Source of the DNA: Thermoplasmatales archaeon SW_10_69_26
GTDB taxonomy: Archaea > Thermoplasmatota > SW-10-69-26
Length of the DNA stretch: 41,302 nucleotides
Assembly: GCA_003009755.1 (NCBI GenBank)
Contig: PXUB01000048.1
Location: forward strand, 1-41,302
Direction: 5' to 3'
The first letter of the stretch is position 1. The number at the start of each line of letters is the position of its first letter. Positions 4,911 to 11,409 of the stretch are shown here, piece after piece. The position numbers and the translations under genes are program-made. The notes below the pieces were generated by a model. That model was given only the letters and a program-made list of their open reading frames with translations, did not search any database and was not told the DNA's origin.

Positions 4911-6239
4911 TCAGTTCTCCAGCGCCTCGCGCAACGTTTCGCGTGTCTCTTTCGGGTCGGCTCGCCCTTGCGTGGCTTGCATGACCTGCCCGACGAGGTA
5001 GTTGACGGCGCCCTCCTCGCCGGCCTCGTAGTCGTCGACCGCGCCCGGGTTGGCCTCGATCGCTTCCTCGACGGCGGCCTCGAGGTCGACGCCGCCGTCG
5101 CGCTCGGCGGCCAGCTGATCGCCGATGGCCTCGCCGTCGAGGTGGGCGCGCAACAGACGCGTGAACACGTGCTTGGTGATCTCGTCTGCGTGCCAGGCGA
5201 GGGCCAGCTCCGCGACCGTGTCCCGGCGGGCGGGGCTCTCGGCCAGCCTCGTGTCGCGGTAGTCGAGCTCGCCCCGCAACCGGTGCAGCACGACGTCGAC
5301 CGCCATCCCGTCGTCGGTGCGCTCTCGGAGCTCGGCGAACAACTCCTCGAGTTCAGGCTCCTCGAGCAGAGCCAGAGCCTCGCCGAGCTCGACGTCGACC
5401 TCGGCCCGCAGCTCGCGCACCCTGGAGGGCACGTCGGCCGGCGGATCCAGACGCTGGGCGGGCGCGGAGAGATCGATGGGGCGCAGGTCGGGCTCGTCCA
5501 TGTAGCGGTAGTCGCCGACGGTCTCCTTCTCCCGGCTGGGCTGGGTCGTGTGCTTGGCCTCGTCGTAGTGGCGGGTGCTCATGCCGACCTCGCGACCGGC
5601 GTCCCGTTCGCGGCGTTGGCGGTCGATCTCGAACCTGGCGGCGCGCGCGGCGTTGCGGGCGCCGACGACGTTCTTGACCTCGACGCGGTCCCCGCCATCG
5701 GTGGAGACGTTGACGTCGGCCTTCAGCTCGGCCTCGGGCCGGGCCACGCCGGCTCGCTCCAAGGCTAGCCGGAGCACGCGGAACCACGTCGTCACCTCCT
5801 CGGGCGAGGACAGGTCCGGCTCGGTGACGATCTCGACCAGCGGCCGCCCCGAGCGGTTCAGGTCGACGGTGCCCTCGCCTGGATCGAAGGCGCCGGGGTC
5901 CTCCTCGAGGTGGACCTCGCGGATGCCGACCTCCCAAAACGAGCCCTCGCGCCCGACCGGCGTCGTCGTGCGCTGGTAGTTGTTCGGCAGATCCGGGTAG
6001 ACGTAGTGCTTGCGCAGCACCGTCGACCGCTCCTCCCGATGACAGTCGAGCACGCGGGCCGCCTGGACCGCCAGCTCGACGGCCCGCTCGTTGACGCCGC
6101 GGGGACGAGCCCCGGGTTGCCCGGTGCAGGTCGGGCACACGTGCGCGTTCGGCCGCTGGGCCTCGCCGGCCGGGCACCGGCAGTACAGCTTGGCTGCGGT
6201 GTCGAGGGGGACGTGCACCTCGAGCCCGATCCGGGTCAC
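4911..6239 (-). CDS. gatB: Asp-tRNA(Asn)/Glu-tRNA(Gln) amidotransferase subunit B
   Basis: tRNA-binding kinase/transamidase subunit of GatCAB. It activates the side chain of mischarged Asp-tRNA(Asn) or Glu-tRNA(Gln) with ATP and accepts ammonia from GatA. The 442 residues open with IGLEVHVPLDTAAKLYCRC and have the zinc-type cysteines C20, C22, C35 and C38 (CPTC). DLNRSGRPLVEIVTEPD and ADVNVSTDGG belong to the catalytic cradle, YRYMDEPDLRPI closes it, and the C-terminal YqeY-like tail (YLVGQVMQATQGRADP) binds the tRNA elbow. The GTG start at 6239 overlaps the gatA stop by four bases (GTGA) and matches the family N-terminus; the open frame upstream of it is only the shadow of gatA. It is slightly shorter than typical bacterial GatB. 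Confidence 0.95.
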   Translation of the reverse strand: MTRIGLEVHVPLDTAAKLYCRCPAGEAQRPNAHVCPTCTGQPGARPRGVNERAVELAVQAARVLDCHREERSTVLRKHYVYPDLPNNYQRTTTPVGREGSFWEVGIREVHLEEDPGAFDPGEGTVDLNRSGRPLVEIVTEPDLSSPEEVTTWFRVLRLALERAGVARPEAELKADVNVSTDGGDRVEVKNVVGARNAARAARFEIDRQRRERDAGREVGMSTRHYDEAKHTTQPSREKETVGDYRYMDEPDLRPIDLSAPAQRLDPPADVPSRVRELRAEVDVELGEALALLEEPELEELFAELRERTDDGMAVDVVLHRLRGELDYRDTRLAESPARRDTVAELALAWHADEITKHVFTRLLRAHLDGEAIGDQLAAERDGGVDLEAAVEEAIEANPGAVDDYEAGEEGAVNYLVGQVMQATQGRADPKETRETLREALEN

Positions 6240-7531
6240 GCGCTTGCCTCCTCGTGCAGGCTCATCGCCTCGAGCACGCGCGCATCCTCGCCGCTTGGAG
6301 CGGTGATCTGCAGCCCGACGGGGCCGCCCGGCAGCGGCTCGGTCGGCACGGTACCGGCCGGCAGCCCGGCCAGGTTGGCGTGCACGGTGAGCACGTCGGC
6401 GGCGCTCTCCTCCAGCGGCGAGGGATCTTGGCCGCGCTCGGGCGGCACGGTCGGCATCGTGGGCGTGAGCACGAGATCGACGTCGGCGAACAGCCCCTGC
6501 CAGTCGCGGACGAGGCGGTGGCGGGCCCCGCGGGCGCGGTCGTACCAGGCCGAGCGGTTCTCGCGGGCCGTGATGAACGTGCCCAGCAGGATGCGGCGTT
6601 TCACCTCGCGCCCGAGATCGCGGCGGCTGGCCTGACCGGGGGTGCCGAACACGGTGCCGTCGAACTTGTGCATCGCGCTGGCGAACTCGGCATAGCAGGT
6701 CACGTAGTAGGCCGACAGCGCGCGCTGGCTGTCGGGCATCGCGATCTCGCGCACGTCGGAGACCTCGTCCCTCAGTCGGTCGACGGCCGCCTGGAAGCGC
6801 TCGCGCACGCCCTCGGAGACCGCCTCGGGCAGCTCGTCGGGTACGCCGAGCCTGGCGTCCCTCAGGTCCGGTGACCTGACCCGCTCGAGGGCGGGCTCGG
6901 GTTCGTCCTCGATCGTGGTCGGGTCCTCGGGGTCGGGGCCGGCGATCGCATCGTACAGGCGGGCGAGCCCCTCCGTGGTGGCGGCCATCGGGCCGGGCTG
7001 GTCGAGGCTCATCGCCAGGTCCACCAACCCCCATCGCGACATCCGACCGCGCGTCGGCTTGAGGCCGGCGACCCCGCAGTAGGCGGCCGGGCAGCGGACC
7101 GAGCCGCCCGTGTCCGTGCCCAGCGCGAGGTCGACGTGACCGGCCGCGAGGGCGGCGGCGCACCCGCTGCTGGACCCGCCCGGGACGGTGCCGGGCTGGG
7201 CCGGGTTGTCGGTGGCGCCGTAGGCCGACCGCTCGCCGCGGGACCCGCAGGCGAACTCGTCCATGTTCGCCTTCGAGACGATCGCGGCCCCGGCCCGCCC
7301 GGCCCGCTCGACGACCGTGGCCGTGAAGGGCGCCTGGTGGTCGGCCAGGATCCGGGAGGCGCAGGTCAGCGGCTGGCCGGCCAGGGCCAGGTTGTCCTTG
7401 ACGGCGAGGCTGTGCCCGGTCAGCGGGCCTTCCTCGGCGTCGACGATCGGCTCGTCGAACACGGTCACGTGGGCTGTGGGTCGATCCTCGCCGATGGCCG
7501 CAAGCGCCTGCTCGCCGGCGGCCCGGCTCAC
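6236..7531 (-). CDS. gatA: Asp-tRNA(Asn)/Glu-tRNA(Gln) amidotransferase subunit A
   Basis: Glutamine amidohydrolase subunit of GatCAB, supplying ammonia to GatB. It belongs to the amidase-signature family, 431 residues. The Ser-cisSer-Lys triad is visible as Lys45 (LAVKDN), Ser120 (PGGSSSG) and Ser144 (GTDTGGSVR). Their spacing (75 and 24 residues) equals that of the K79/S154/S178 triad described for the staphylococcal enzyme. The GTG start overlaps the gatC stop (GTGA, 7528-7531), and its own stop overlaps the gatB start the same way, so the three subunits are translationally coupled. All catalytic positions are present and I see nothing odd in it. Confidence 0.95.
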   Translation of the reverse strand: MSRAAGEQALAAIGEDRPTAHVTVFDEPIVDAEEGPLTGHSLAVKDNLALAGQPLTCASRILADHQAPFTATVVERAGRAGAAIVSKANMDEFACGSRGERSAYGATDNPAQPGTVPGGSSSGCAAALAAGHVDLALGTDTGGSVRCPAAYCGVAGLKPTRGRMSRWGLVDLAMSLDQPGPMAATTEGLARLYDAIAGPDPEDPTTIEDEPEPALERVRSPDLRDARLGVPDELPEAVSEGVRERFQAAVDRLRDEVSDVREIAMPDSQRALSAYYVTCYAEFASAMHKFDGTVFGTPGQASRRDLGREVKRRILLGTFITARENRSAWYDRARGARHRLVRDWQGLFADVDLVLTPTMPTVPPERGQDPSPLEESAADVLTVHANLAGLPAGTVPTEPLPGGPVGLQITAPSGEDARVLEAMSLHEEASA

Positions 7532-7800
7532 GGGTGAAGCGACCTCCCGTCGCGGTCGGGGAAGGCCCGCACGATCGCCTCGATGCCATCCTCGGGCCAG
7601 GGCTCGGGCTCGTCGGCGAACGTGCGCACCGGCGCCGGGGCCTGGGTCTCGTCGCCGAGGTCCTCGAGCTGGAAGGCCGACAGGACCTCTCGGCAGGCCT
7701 GGGCCATCTGCTCGCGCTCGTCCTCGTCGAGCTCGAGGTTCGCCAGCTCGGCCAGGTGGTCGACGTCCAGCGAGCCGGGGTCGGTCTCGTCTGCGGGCAC
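7528..7800 (-). CDS. gatC: Asp-tRNA(Asn)/Glu-tRNA(Gln) amidotransferase subunit C
   Basis: Small belt subunit that wraps GatA and GatB together, 90 residues. The N-terminal helices (LDVDHLAELANLELDEDE, then QACREVLSAFQLEDL) match the GatC pattern of a DHLAxLAxLxL helix. The C-terminal half is the extended segment ending in VRAFPDRDG. An in-frame ATG further upstream would put the start beyond the promoter and into the divergent tRNA region. The GTG at 7800 sits 28 bases from the palindromic TATA-like element and gives the family-typical length, so it is preferred. It is first in the gatC-gatA-gatB operon and diverges from tRNA-Asn, the likely substrate tRNA. Confidence 0.88.
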   Translation of the reverse strand: MPADETDPGSLDVDHLAELANLELDEDEREQMAQACREVLSAFQLEDLGDETQAPAPVRTFADEPEPWPEDGIEAIVRAFPDRDGRSLHP

Positions 7801-7823
7801 CAACGGGTGAGAAAGGATGACGG

Positions 7824-7833
7824 TTCTTAAGGA
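7824..7833. promoter_or_regulatory. Palindromic TATA-like element shared by gatCAB and tRNA-Asn
   Basis: TTCTTAAGGA, with the perfect core CTTAAG at 7826-7831, lies midway between the gatC GTG at 7800 (28.5 bases) and the tRNA-Asn 5' end at 7858 (29.5 bases). Both distances fit archaeal TATA-to-start spacing, so one box may serve both directions. Confidence 0.55.
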
Positions 7834-7857
7834 CCGGGCCGCGTGGTAGCCCATCGA

Positions 7858-7929
7858 GGCCCTGTAGTCTAATTGGTAGGATACGGCGCTGTTAACGCCG
7901 TGGTGCTGGTTCGAGTCCAGCCGGGGCCG
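7858..7929 (+). tRNA. tRNA-Asn (anticodon GTT)
   Basis: A full cloverleaf of 72 nt. The acceptor GGCCCTG (7858-7864) pairs with CGGGGCC (7922-7928) with one wobble. The anticodon stem CGGCG/CGCCG closes the loop CTGTTAA (anticodon GTT, Asn). The T arm is GCTGG-TTCGAGT-CCAGC, and the discriminator is G7929. No intron is present and no CCA is encoded. It sits head-to-head with gatCAB, whose enzyme could make its aminoacylated form from Asp-tRNA(Asn). Confidence 0.95.
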
Positions 7930-9480: not shown

Positions 9481-11409
9481 ATGATGCGACGACGATGGCT
9501 CGTGTTCGCCGTGGCGGCCCTGCTGATCACGCCGGCAGGCGCCGTGCTCGCCCAGAACGACACGAACGAGACGAACGAGACGGACGGCGACGGCTTCGAC
9601 GCCAACGAGAGCGCCAACGCCTCCGACGACGAAGCCGACGAGGACGACGAGGAGGCCGAGGACGCCGACCAGGCGGACGAAGCCGAAGAAGCCGACGAGG
9701 ACGAGGCCGACGACGACGAGGCCGAGCAGGCTCGGGCCCGCGGCAGCTCGTCCAGCTGGACCGAGGACAACGGCACCTACACCGGCGAGTTCCTCCAGGT
9801 CACCGTCGACGAGGAGCTGCCCGGCCTCCGCGAGGTCACCTACGTCGAGCACGACGCGACCGTCTTCGCGTCCGTCGCGCTCTCCGGCGAGGCGTTCACC
9901 CACCACGCCAACCAGCACGTGCTGTCCGGGGAGACCGACGCCAACGAGTTCGCCGCGGTCGACGACGACGGCGGCCACCTGACCCTCGAGGGCGACGACG
10001 GCAACGCCACTCTCGAGGCCGCCGTCGCCGACGGCGTCGACGTCAACGCCAGCGACCGCTACAGCGACGACTCCTCCGCCTACCAGCTCCACCTCGGCAA
10101 CGAGACCTTCTGGGTCTACGGCGAGGACCTCGCCTACGACAACGGGACGTTCGCCGTCGACGACGAGGCTCGCCTCTCGCAGACGTTCCCCGCCGAGGAG
10201 GCCGAAGCCGAACGCGCCGGGGAGGACGAGGACGAGCGCGAGGACCGCCGCGAGGCGGGCTCGCAGTGGGATCGCTCGAACGACACCTTCGAGGGCGACC
10301 ACGTCTCGTTCACGCTCGACGCCAACCAGACGCGCATCCTCGACTACGCGCTGACGGGCTCCGCGACGCCGGTGTTCACCGAGGCCGACATCCCCGAGGG
10401 CAACGAGTCCCAGTGGCGCGCCCACGGCAAGGCCTTCGAGATGCGCACGGACGAGGAACGCATCCGCGTCGTCGACGTGCCGCCGGCCATCCTCGAGATC
10501 CGCGCCGACGACGAGACCGAGGCCCACCTCGCGCTCGCCGACGGCGTCAACGCCACCGTGGTCGAGGCCGACGACGACGAGGCCGTCTACGAGCTGCAGC
10601 TCGACGGGAACCGGACCGCCTGGGTCTTAGGCGAGGACCTCACGCTCGCCAACGGCACGTTCACCGTCGGCGACCGCGCGATGTTCCGCGCCATGCCGAC
10701 CGACCCCAGCGCCTCCGCCAACCAAGGCCCCGGCAGCATGCCCGAGGCCGGCGACGAGCGCGGTCCGCCCGAGGACCGCGGCCCGCCGGAGGAGGCCGGC
10801 CCCGAGGACGAGGCTGAGGACGAGGACGAGGAGGAGCGCGGTCCCCCCGCTCACGCGCTCAACAACAGCGTCCGAACCCAGGTCGAGCAGGCCAAGGCCG
10901 CCGGCCAGGTCGGCGCCGAGGTCCACGTCGGCGACAACGGCTCCCAGCCCGTCGCCGTCGAGATGGGCGAGGTCCGCGTGACGAATACCTGGAGCCCCGC
11001 CGAGAACGGCTCGGCCGGCATGCAGATCCAGGCGCCCGACGACGCCCCGGCCACGACCGTGACGATGAACCTCGAGAAGGGCGCGCTCGGCAACGTCTCC
11101 ATCACCGACGCCCCGCAGAAGCTCAGCGTCGAGTACGACAACGAGACGATCGCGATGGCCGACAGCCTCGACGACGTGCTGGAGCCGACCGACGACGAGG
11201 GCGAGCCCGAGTACCTGCTCCTCGTCGGCGGCGAGGAGGTTCAGGTCCTCGTCAGCGTCCCCCACTTCAGCCCGCACCAGATCGAGGTCGTCGAGACGCA
11301 AAGCAGCCAACAGGTCGACAGCAGCCAGGTCCCCGGCTTCACCGCCGTCTCGCTGGCCCTCGCTAGCGGCCTGGCCGCCGCCGTCGCCGGCATCCGCCGC
11401 CACGGCTGA
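9481..11409 (+). CDS. Large acidic surface protein with PGF-CTERM-like anchor, unknown function
   Basis: A 642-residue exported protein. Residues 1-24 are a signal peptide (VLAQ). Residues 25-90 are a Thr/Asn/Asp/Glu-rich linker with many N-glycosylation sequons. Two related beta-rich modules follow, about 92-235 and 260-400; each ends with a matching phrase, WVYGEDLAYDNGTFAVDDEA and WVLGEDLTLANGTFTVGDRA. A charged disordered stretch (about 415-460) leads to a domain ending VLVSVPHFSPHQIEV. The C-terminus has PGF at 618, a hydrophobic segment and IRRHG, the layout of PGF-CTERM signals cleaved by archaeosortase A. I infer anchoring in the envelope. Two adjacent ATGs start it; the first fits the TATA spacing. 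The next gene carries the same kind of modules. Confidence 0.8.
   Translation: MMRRRWLVFAVAALLITPAGAVLAQNDTNETNETDGDGFDANESANASDDEADEDDEEAEDADQADEAEEADEDEADDDEAEQARARGSSSSWTEDNGTYTGEFLQVTVDEELPGLREVTYVEHDATVFASVALSGEAFTHHANQHVLSGETDANEFAAVDDDGGHLTLEGDDGNATLEAAVADGVDVNASDRYSDDSSAYQLHLGNETFWVYGEDLAYDNGTFAVDDEARLSQTFPAEEAEAERAGEDEDEREDRREAGSQWDRSNDTFEGDHVSFTLDANQTRILDYALTGSATPVFTEADIPEGNESQWRAHGKAFEMRTDEERIRVVDVPPAILEIRADDETEAHLALADGVNATVVEADDDEAVYELQLDGNRTAWVLGEDLTLANGTFTVGDRAMFRAMPTDPSASANQGPGSMPEAGDERGPPEDRGPPEEAGPEDEAEDEDEEERGPPAHALNNSVRTQVEQAKAAGQVGAEVHVGDNGSQPVAVEMGEVRVTNTWSPAENGSAGMQIQAPDDAPATTVTMNLEKGALGNVSITDAPQKLSVEYDNETIAMADSLDDVLEPTDDEGEPEYLLLVGGEEVQVLVSVPHFSPHQIEVVETQSSQQVDSSQVPGFTAVSLALASGLAAAVAGIRRHG

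Follow-up and report, generated by a model that had tools for sequence, protein, structure and literature searches.

The closest described systems to the locus analyzed here are archaeal promoters that work in both directions and enzymes that amidate amino acids on tRNA. In P. furiosus, sense and antisense transcripts start about 50 bp apart, with a BRE-TATA-BRE motif lying between the two, and in vitro transcription from one TATA box gives both products from starts that are 49 bp apart (PMC6640164). The same study reports that archaeal TBP binds the TATA box symmetrically (PMC6640164). Divergent transcription is, moreover, widespread from symmetric bacterial and archaeal promoters according to Warman et al. 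(2021), as cited in PMC10268837. As for tRNA-dependent amidation, GatDE handles glutamine in archaea and leaves GatCAB for tRNA-Asn (PMC9499178). Bdellovibrio has AsnRS, one AspRS and GatCAB but no AsnB, and asparagine is believed to be synthesized on tRNA by GatCAB in this organism (PMC4206432).

Here we describe a locus that resembles both kinds of system and departs from each of them. As in the P. furiosus bidirectional promoters, a near-symmetric TATA core sits between divergent starts with an expected spacing of about 50 bp. The second transcript in P. furiosus is, however, usually an antisense by-product, whereas both sides would here be genes from a single pathway, including a tRNA gene, and the starts are predicted. 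The locus likewise shares a direction-neutral core behind divergent transcription with the promoters of Warman et al. (2021), but a conserved gene pair takes the place of general noise. TATA symmetry, a statistical property of archaeal promoters that is usually taken as antisense noise, would here serve a conserved divergent pair having two useful products. With respect to the pathway, AsnRS and GatCAB occur and no AsnB was found, a set that would match Bdellovibrio, Deinococcus and Thermus, and there is a single AspRS as in Bdellovibrio (PMC4206432); unlike these bacteria, the archaeal clade has a second, structurally different tRNA-Asn tied to gatCAB. GatCAB is expected to be limited to tRNA-Asn, as is the Methanothermobacter-type archaeal enzyme that occurs with GatDE (PMC9499178), but its GatB belongs to a clade apart from the Thermoplasmatota GatB proteins that go with an ordinary tRNA-Asn, and it has a linked tRNA-Asn of its own.

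Results and Discussion

The gatCAB/tRNA-Asn locus

The window, the whole 41,302-nt stretch of DNA that was analyzed, is contig C48 of a Thermoplasmatota genome (labeled G000) of 2.82 Mb in 49 contigs that is 95% complete and has a GC content of about 69%. The genes gatC, gatA and gatB stand together at the locus (Table 1). Our likeliest start for gatC is the GTG codon at position 7800 on the minus strand, with TTG at 7803 as an alternative. The gatC counterpart in G001, a genome from the same family but another genus, is 41-43% identical, and GatA shares 45-64% identity with the GatA proteins of relatives.

Table 1. Positions in the window of the features discussed in the text
Feature	Position	Strand	Remarks
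gatB	4911..6239	-	Above the cut-offs of TIGR00133 and NF004012
gatA, amidase subunit	6236..7531	-	TIGR00132, strong (423 bits) but below the cut-off of 481
gatC	7528..7800	-	TIGR00135, weak (21 bits; cut-off 47); operon position
Gap between gatC and tRNA-Asn	7801..7857	.	57 bp, divergent; putative bidirectional core promoter
Near-palindrome CGGTTCTTAAGGACCG	7821..7836	.	16 bp, 7 of 8 pairs, one mismatched pair
CTTAAG	7826..7831	.	Centre 7828.5; symmetric TATA core proposed for both directions
tRNA-Asn(GUU)	7858..7929	+	Second type (linked to gatCAB); variable loop of 4 nt, A15-U48

The gap between the divergent genes measures 57 bp rather than the 58 bp given in the first-pass annotation. It is the smallest among 200 divergent pairs sampled over 1.22 Mb of the genome, the next being 60, 62 and 62 bp and all further ones at least 77 bp. 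Several of the pairs with gaps of 77-80 bp hold two back-to-back promoters, which places about 57-60 bp near the floor at which a shared core would be forced.

A second type of tRNA-Asn

The tRNA in the window has a complete fold, a GUU anticodon and G73 (ARAGORN and the Rfam tRNA model, 67.6 bits). It has the anticodon and G73 in common with the canonical archaeal tRNA-Asn, but lacks the five-nt variable loop, G15-C48 and GCTC-type D-stem of that molecule; it represents instead a second type in which the variable loop has four nucleotides, position 15 pairs as A15-U48, the D-stem is of the GTCT type and the acceptor stem is different. Mean identity is 72% inside the second type and 74% inside the ordinary type, as opposed to 52% across the types, a value that puts the second type no nearer to the ordinary one than to unrelated tRNAs of G000. 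The second type also forms a clade of its own in a tRNA tree (local support 0.993).

A pattern search of 293 genomes of the phylum shows that G001, G002, G003 and G006 have two tRNA-Asn genes each, one usual and one of the second type. The tRNA that adjoins gatC is of the second type in every case. Searching G000 with the canonical tRNA-Asn of G001 gives only pieces of 14-23 bases, and the second type is the only type of tRNA-Asn found in this genome. Two possible origins of the tRNA were considered and rejected. No other isoacceptor of G000 is closer than about 58%, tRNA-Asp not being among the closest, which speaks against derivation from one of them, and a plasmid or phage origin finds only plasmid matches of about 75% identity at best, a bacterial tRNA-Asn and a tRNA-Met included, and no phage match. 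We found no description of such a tRNA-Asn type in the open-licence literature, and this linked type is the part of this work likely to surprise specialists. It points to archaeal cells that contain two sorts of tRNA-Asn, of which one is tied to the transamidation enzyme. As a separate observation, the 41 tRNA genes found in G000 include no tRNA-Trp, which may be intron-split or may be encoded in the portion that the assembly lacks.

Linkage of the second-type tRNA-Asn with gatCAB

Among 390 genomes of the phylum, the second-type pattern matches six, five from the class of the window's genome and G331, which is of the same phylum and carries locus L168. All told, the second-type tRNA-Asn is present in nine genomes from two archaeal groups and adjoins gatCAB in eight of them; in G002 it lies elsewhere in the genome, away from gatCAB. 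A set of 80 loci collected by GatB similarity includes four at which a tRNA-Asn adjoins gatCAB, namely L165 and L168 (Thermoplasmata), L166 (DPANN) and L155 (Aenigmatarchaeota), and the tRNA is of the second type at all four. The layout of the linked genes varies. Head-to-head pairs are separated by 54, 57, 94, 103 or 144 bp, while a gene for an AsnC/Lrp-family regulator, which might sense asparagine for the operon, lies between tRNA-Asn and gatC, in the direction of gatC, at L165 (about 637-1071) and L168 (3943-4377). At L155 (4329-4437), the tRNA is predicted to contain a 34-nt intron and its CCA end is encoded; it lies 11 nt ahead of gatC in the same orientation and may be co-transcribed with gatCAB.

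A tree built from 55 GatB proteins groups all nine that belong to genomes carrying the second-type tRNA in one clade (support 100/98), whose sole extra member comes from G004. The other 26 Thermoplasmatota rows make up a clade apart, and the exact position of the DPANN row, a fragmentary sequence on a long branch, is unsure. In G004 itself, a perfect G+C-rich inverted repeat at the end of contig C108 (L058, about 11029-11057) closes the gat contig about 125 bp before gatC, and the contig end falls where the second-type tRNA-Asn would be expected. The G004 assembly yields no second-type tRNA-Asn.

The simplest account of these observations is that the second-type tRNA would be the substrate on which GatCAB makes asparagine, with linkage keeping the supply of both together. 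The main rival is a neutral, transferred cassette, that is to say that the tRNA does ordinary decoding and has no special relation to GatCAB, and that the linkage has been passively inherited or transferred. Transfer is suggested by deep divergence and by a patchy distribution. In addition, the second type is the only tRNA-Asn matched in G000, G331 and G391, and so must serve translation in these three genomes and cannot be reserved for GatCAB. On the other hand, the linkage survives changes in spacing, in orientation and in the intervening gene, and five genomes (G001, G002, G003, G006 and the genome of L166) retain an ordinary tRNA-Asn beside the second type. On balance, we regard the cassette as somewhat unlikely. 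Returning to the substrate reading, we hypothesize that AspRS or GatCAB prefers the second-type tRNA. We also put forward, tentatively and as a possibility that we would not yet favor, the wider proposal that a GatCAB clade owns a dedicated tRNA-Asn, structurally apart from the one charged by AsnRS, that would act as a scaffold for asparagine. Such a module would have moved or survived across Thermoplasmatota and DPANN, and in one family a single symmetric TATA box would express both enzyme and tRNA.

The probable asparagine pathway

GatD and GatE are encoded adjacently on contig C19 of G000. Given the archaeal division of labor (PMC9499178), GatCAB should then act on Asp-tRNA(Asn), and the suggestion in the first-pass annotation that tRNA-Asn is the likely GatCAB substrate becomes very probable. 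That annotation had also proposed to look for an AsnRS gene, and had set a full-length one, if combined with a head-to-head arrangement that is not conserved, against its reading of the locus. The AsnRS of G000 is indeed full length and scores above two family cut-offs, and a full-length gene is present in all seven genomes sampled from the class, which excludes GatCAB as the sole route to Asn-tRNA. The arrangement, however, is conserved in relatives, including G001, G003 and G006.

Only partial, sub-threshold matches to asparagine synthetase B (AsnB) were obtained in G000, the assembly being 95% complete, and we found no third AspRS/AsnRS-like gene in this genome that might be an archaeal AsnA. 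The single AspRS scores 520 bits to aspS_nondisc, which is a family name only. At the positions equivalent to W26 and K85 of the Thermococcus AspRS, which we take to be residues that matter for specificity, the G000 enzyme has Q and then E, giving no clear pointer to specificity.

With AsnRS present, AsnB not found and GatDE expected to handle glutamine, GatCAB plausibly makes asparagine on the second-type tRNA-Asn. AspRS, which would have to be non-discriminating, would load aspartate on this tRNA and GatCAB would convert it to asparagine; the route would provide both asparagine and Asn-tRNA, and AsnRS would recharge the free asparagine. A two-tRNA system of this kind makes it directly testable how a cell combines the direct route to Asn-tRNA with the indirect one, and for what reason GatCAB is retained beside AsnRS.

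The predicted promoter between gatC and tRNA-Asn

CTTAAG is the sole well-placed TATA-like core within the gap. As the first-pass annotation had noted, all three pairs of the hexamer match, and its centre lies 28.5 nt from the gatC start and 29.5 nt from the 5' end of tRNA-Asn. As many TATA boxes in G000 are TTAA-centred, the palindrome alone says little, and its position was consequently compared with promoter statistics from 1.22 of the 2.82 Mb of the genome, using genes predicted with a home-made gene finder. For 1,032 predicted genes, the motif YTTAW ([CT]TTA[AT]) shows a sharp peak 28-34 nt ahead of the start codon, and 72 genes have it at -35 to -27 compared to 11 in an equal control window. 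A matrix learned without reference to position consists of 'AA' (BRE), two nucleotides and then YTTAW; it gives a site to about 65% of 819 genes, and the commonest sites start 37-40 nt before the start codon. This placement of TATA and BRE suggests that transcripts in G000 are mostly leaderless. CTTAAG begins at -31 from the gatC GTG codon, which is the modal position, and at -32 from the tRNA 5' end, so that both distances are inside the genome-wide peak.

The matrix scores are only moderate, at 4.9 in the gatC direction and 5.9 in the tRNA direction (95th and 99th percentiles for random windows, 4.6 and 6.8), because the BRE 'AA' is absent on both sides. Moreover, the value of 5.9 belongs to a register shifted by two bases, and CTTAAG as such scores -1.3 in that direction. 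Within the window alone, the case for a shared core thus leans more on where the motif lies than on how strong it is.

Comparison with the other genomes of the class, in which G003 and G006 represent another family, adds to this case. The gap in G001 is 54 bp and CTTAAG is kept in register, at a suitable distance from both genes as in the window. When the two gaps are anchored on the tRNA, TCTTAAG is the longest identical run, a result matched by 0.26% of shuffles. The G001 core is also the stronger one, with scores of 11.4 for tRNA and 8.9 for gatC and 'AA' BRE-like elements on both sides, as against the weak BREs of the window. The head-to-head genes of G003 (94-bp gap) and G006 (144-bp gap) have separate promoter-like sites, scoring 10.1 and 8.4 for gatC and 12.6 and 11.1 for tRNA, respectively, all of which begin at -40 or -41; in G006, an additional site on the gatC strand lies over the TATA box of the tRNA (score 9.2). 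Apparent sharing of a single TATA box is confined to two genera, both from the family of the window, and the shared core probably arose there through compaction.

We propose that the 57-bp gap contains one bidirectional archaeal core promoter. TBP would bind the symmetric CTTAAG and TFB would dock on either side, so that RNA polymerase would start about 26-29 bp away in either direction. The products would be a leaderless gatC-gatA-gatB mRNA from the minus strand and, from the plus strand, a tRNA-Asn precursor whose leader would not exceed a few nucleotides, with predicted start sites at about 7800-7803 and 7853-7857.

Three other interpretations of the gap were weighed. In both G000 and G001, the top-scoring matrix registers for gatC and for the tRNA lie a few bases apart, as might be seen if two overlapping and mutually exclusive core promoters, each with its own TBP and TFB, used the same AT-rich core. 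The registers overlap almost fully, however, and binding of TBP is reported to be symmetric (PMC6640164). Since both registers cannot be occupied at once, this arrangement, which we consider unlikely as a distinct alternative, differs little from a single shared site. It is rather improbable that CTTAAG serves the tRNA only, with gatC being weakly expressed or transcribed from elsewhere, for example from the minus strand in or beyond the tRNA gene. Such an arrangement would be in line with the score of just 4.9 for gatC in G000, and the need of the tRNA for a promoter could by itself conserve the core. Nevertheless, the core is at the genome's modal position relative to gatC, the gatC direction scores 8.9 in G001, and gatC in G003 and G006 has its own leaderless promoter at -40/-41. 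This last finding argues that gatC, like the tRNA gene, depends on a promoter within the gap, where G000 and G001 offer only the core used by the tRNA. Finally, the symmetry of CGGT[T]CTTAAG[G]ACCG, together with the AsnC/Lrp gene ahead of gatC in two relatives, might suggest an operator for a regulator of both genes, for example one of the AsnC/Lrp family. The window has no adjoining regulator gene of this type, though, and the outer part of the near-palindrome, past TCTTAAGA, is not conserved in G001. We therefore dropped this very improbable interpretation.

Taken together, these findings incline us toward the view that one symmetric core drives both gatCAB and tRNA-Asn and that this distinct tRNA, co-inherited with gatCAB, is most likely the substrate of the enzyme. 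The promoter itself would be a neat instance of a known mechanism, and the first-pass annotation was right in outline on this point and incomplete as to the biology. It had suggested that a shared promoter ties the levels of enzyme and tRNA together, but two-way use of one TBP site could equally set the two transcripts competing. The idea of a shared promoter can be tested in vitro with the 57 bp of the gap.

Another divergent pair in G000, on contig C19 (L111:2032-2091), has a 60-bp gap with a single TTTAAG core that is likely a second shared TATA box; it separates the gene of a small unknown protein from that of a protein resembling aspartate carbamoyltransferase, as judged by eye.
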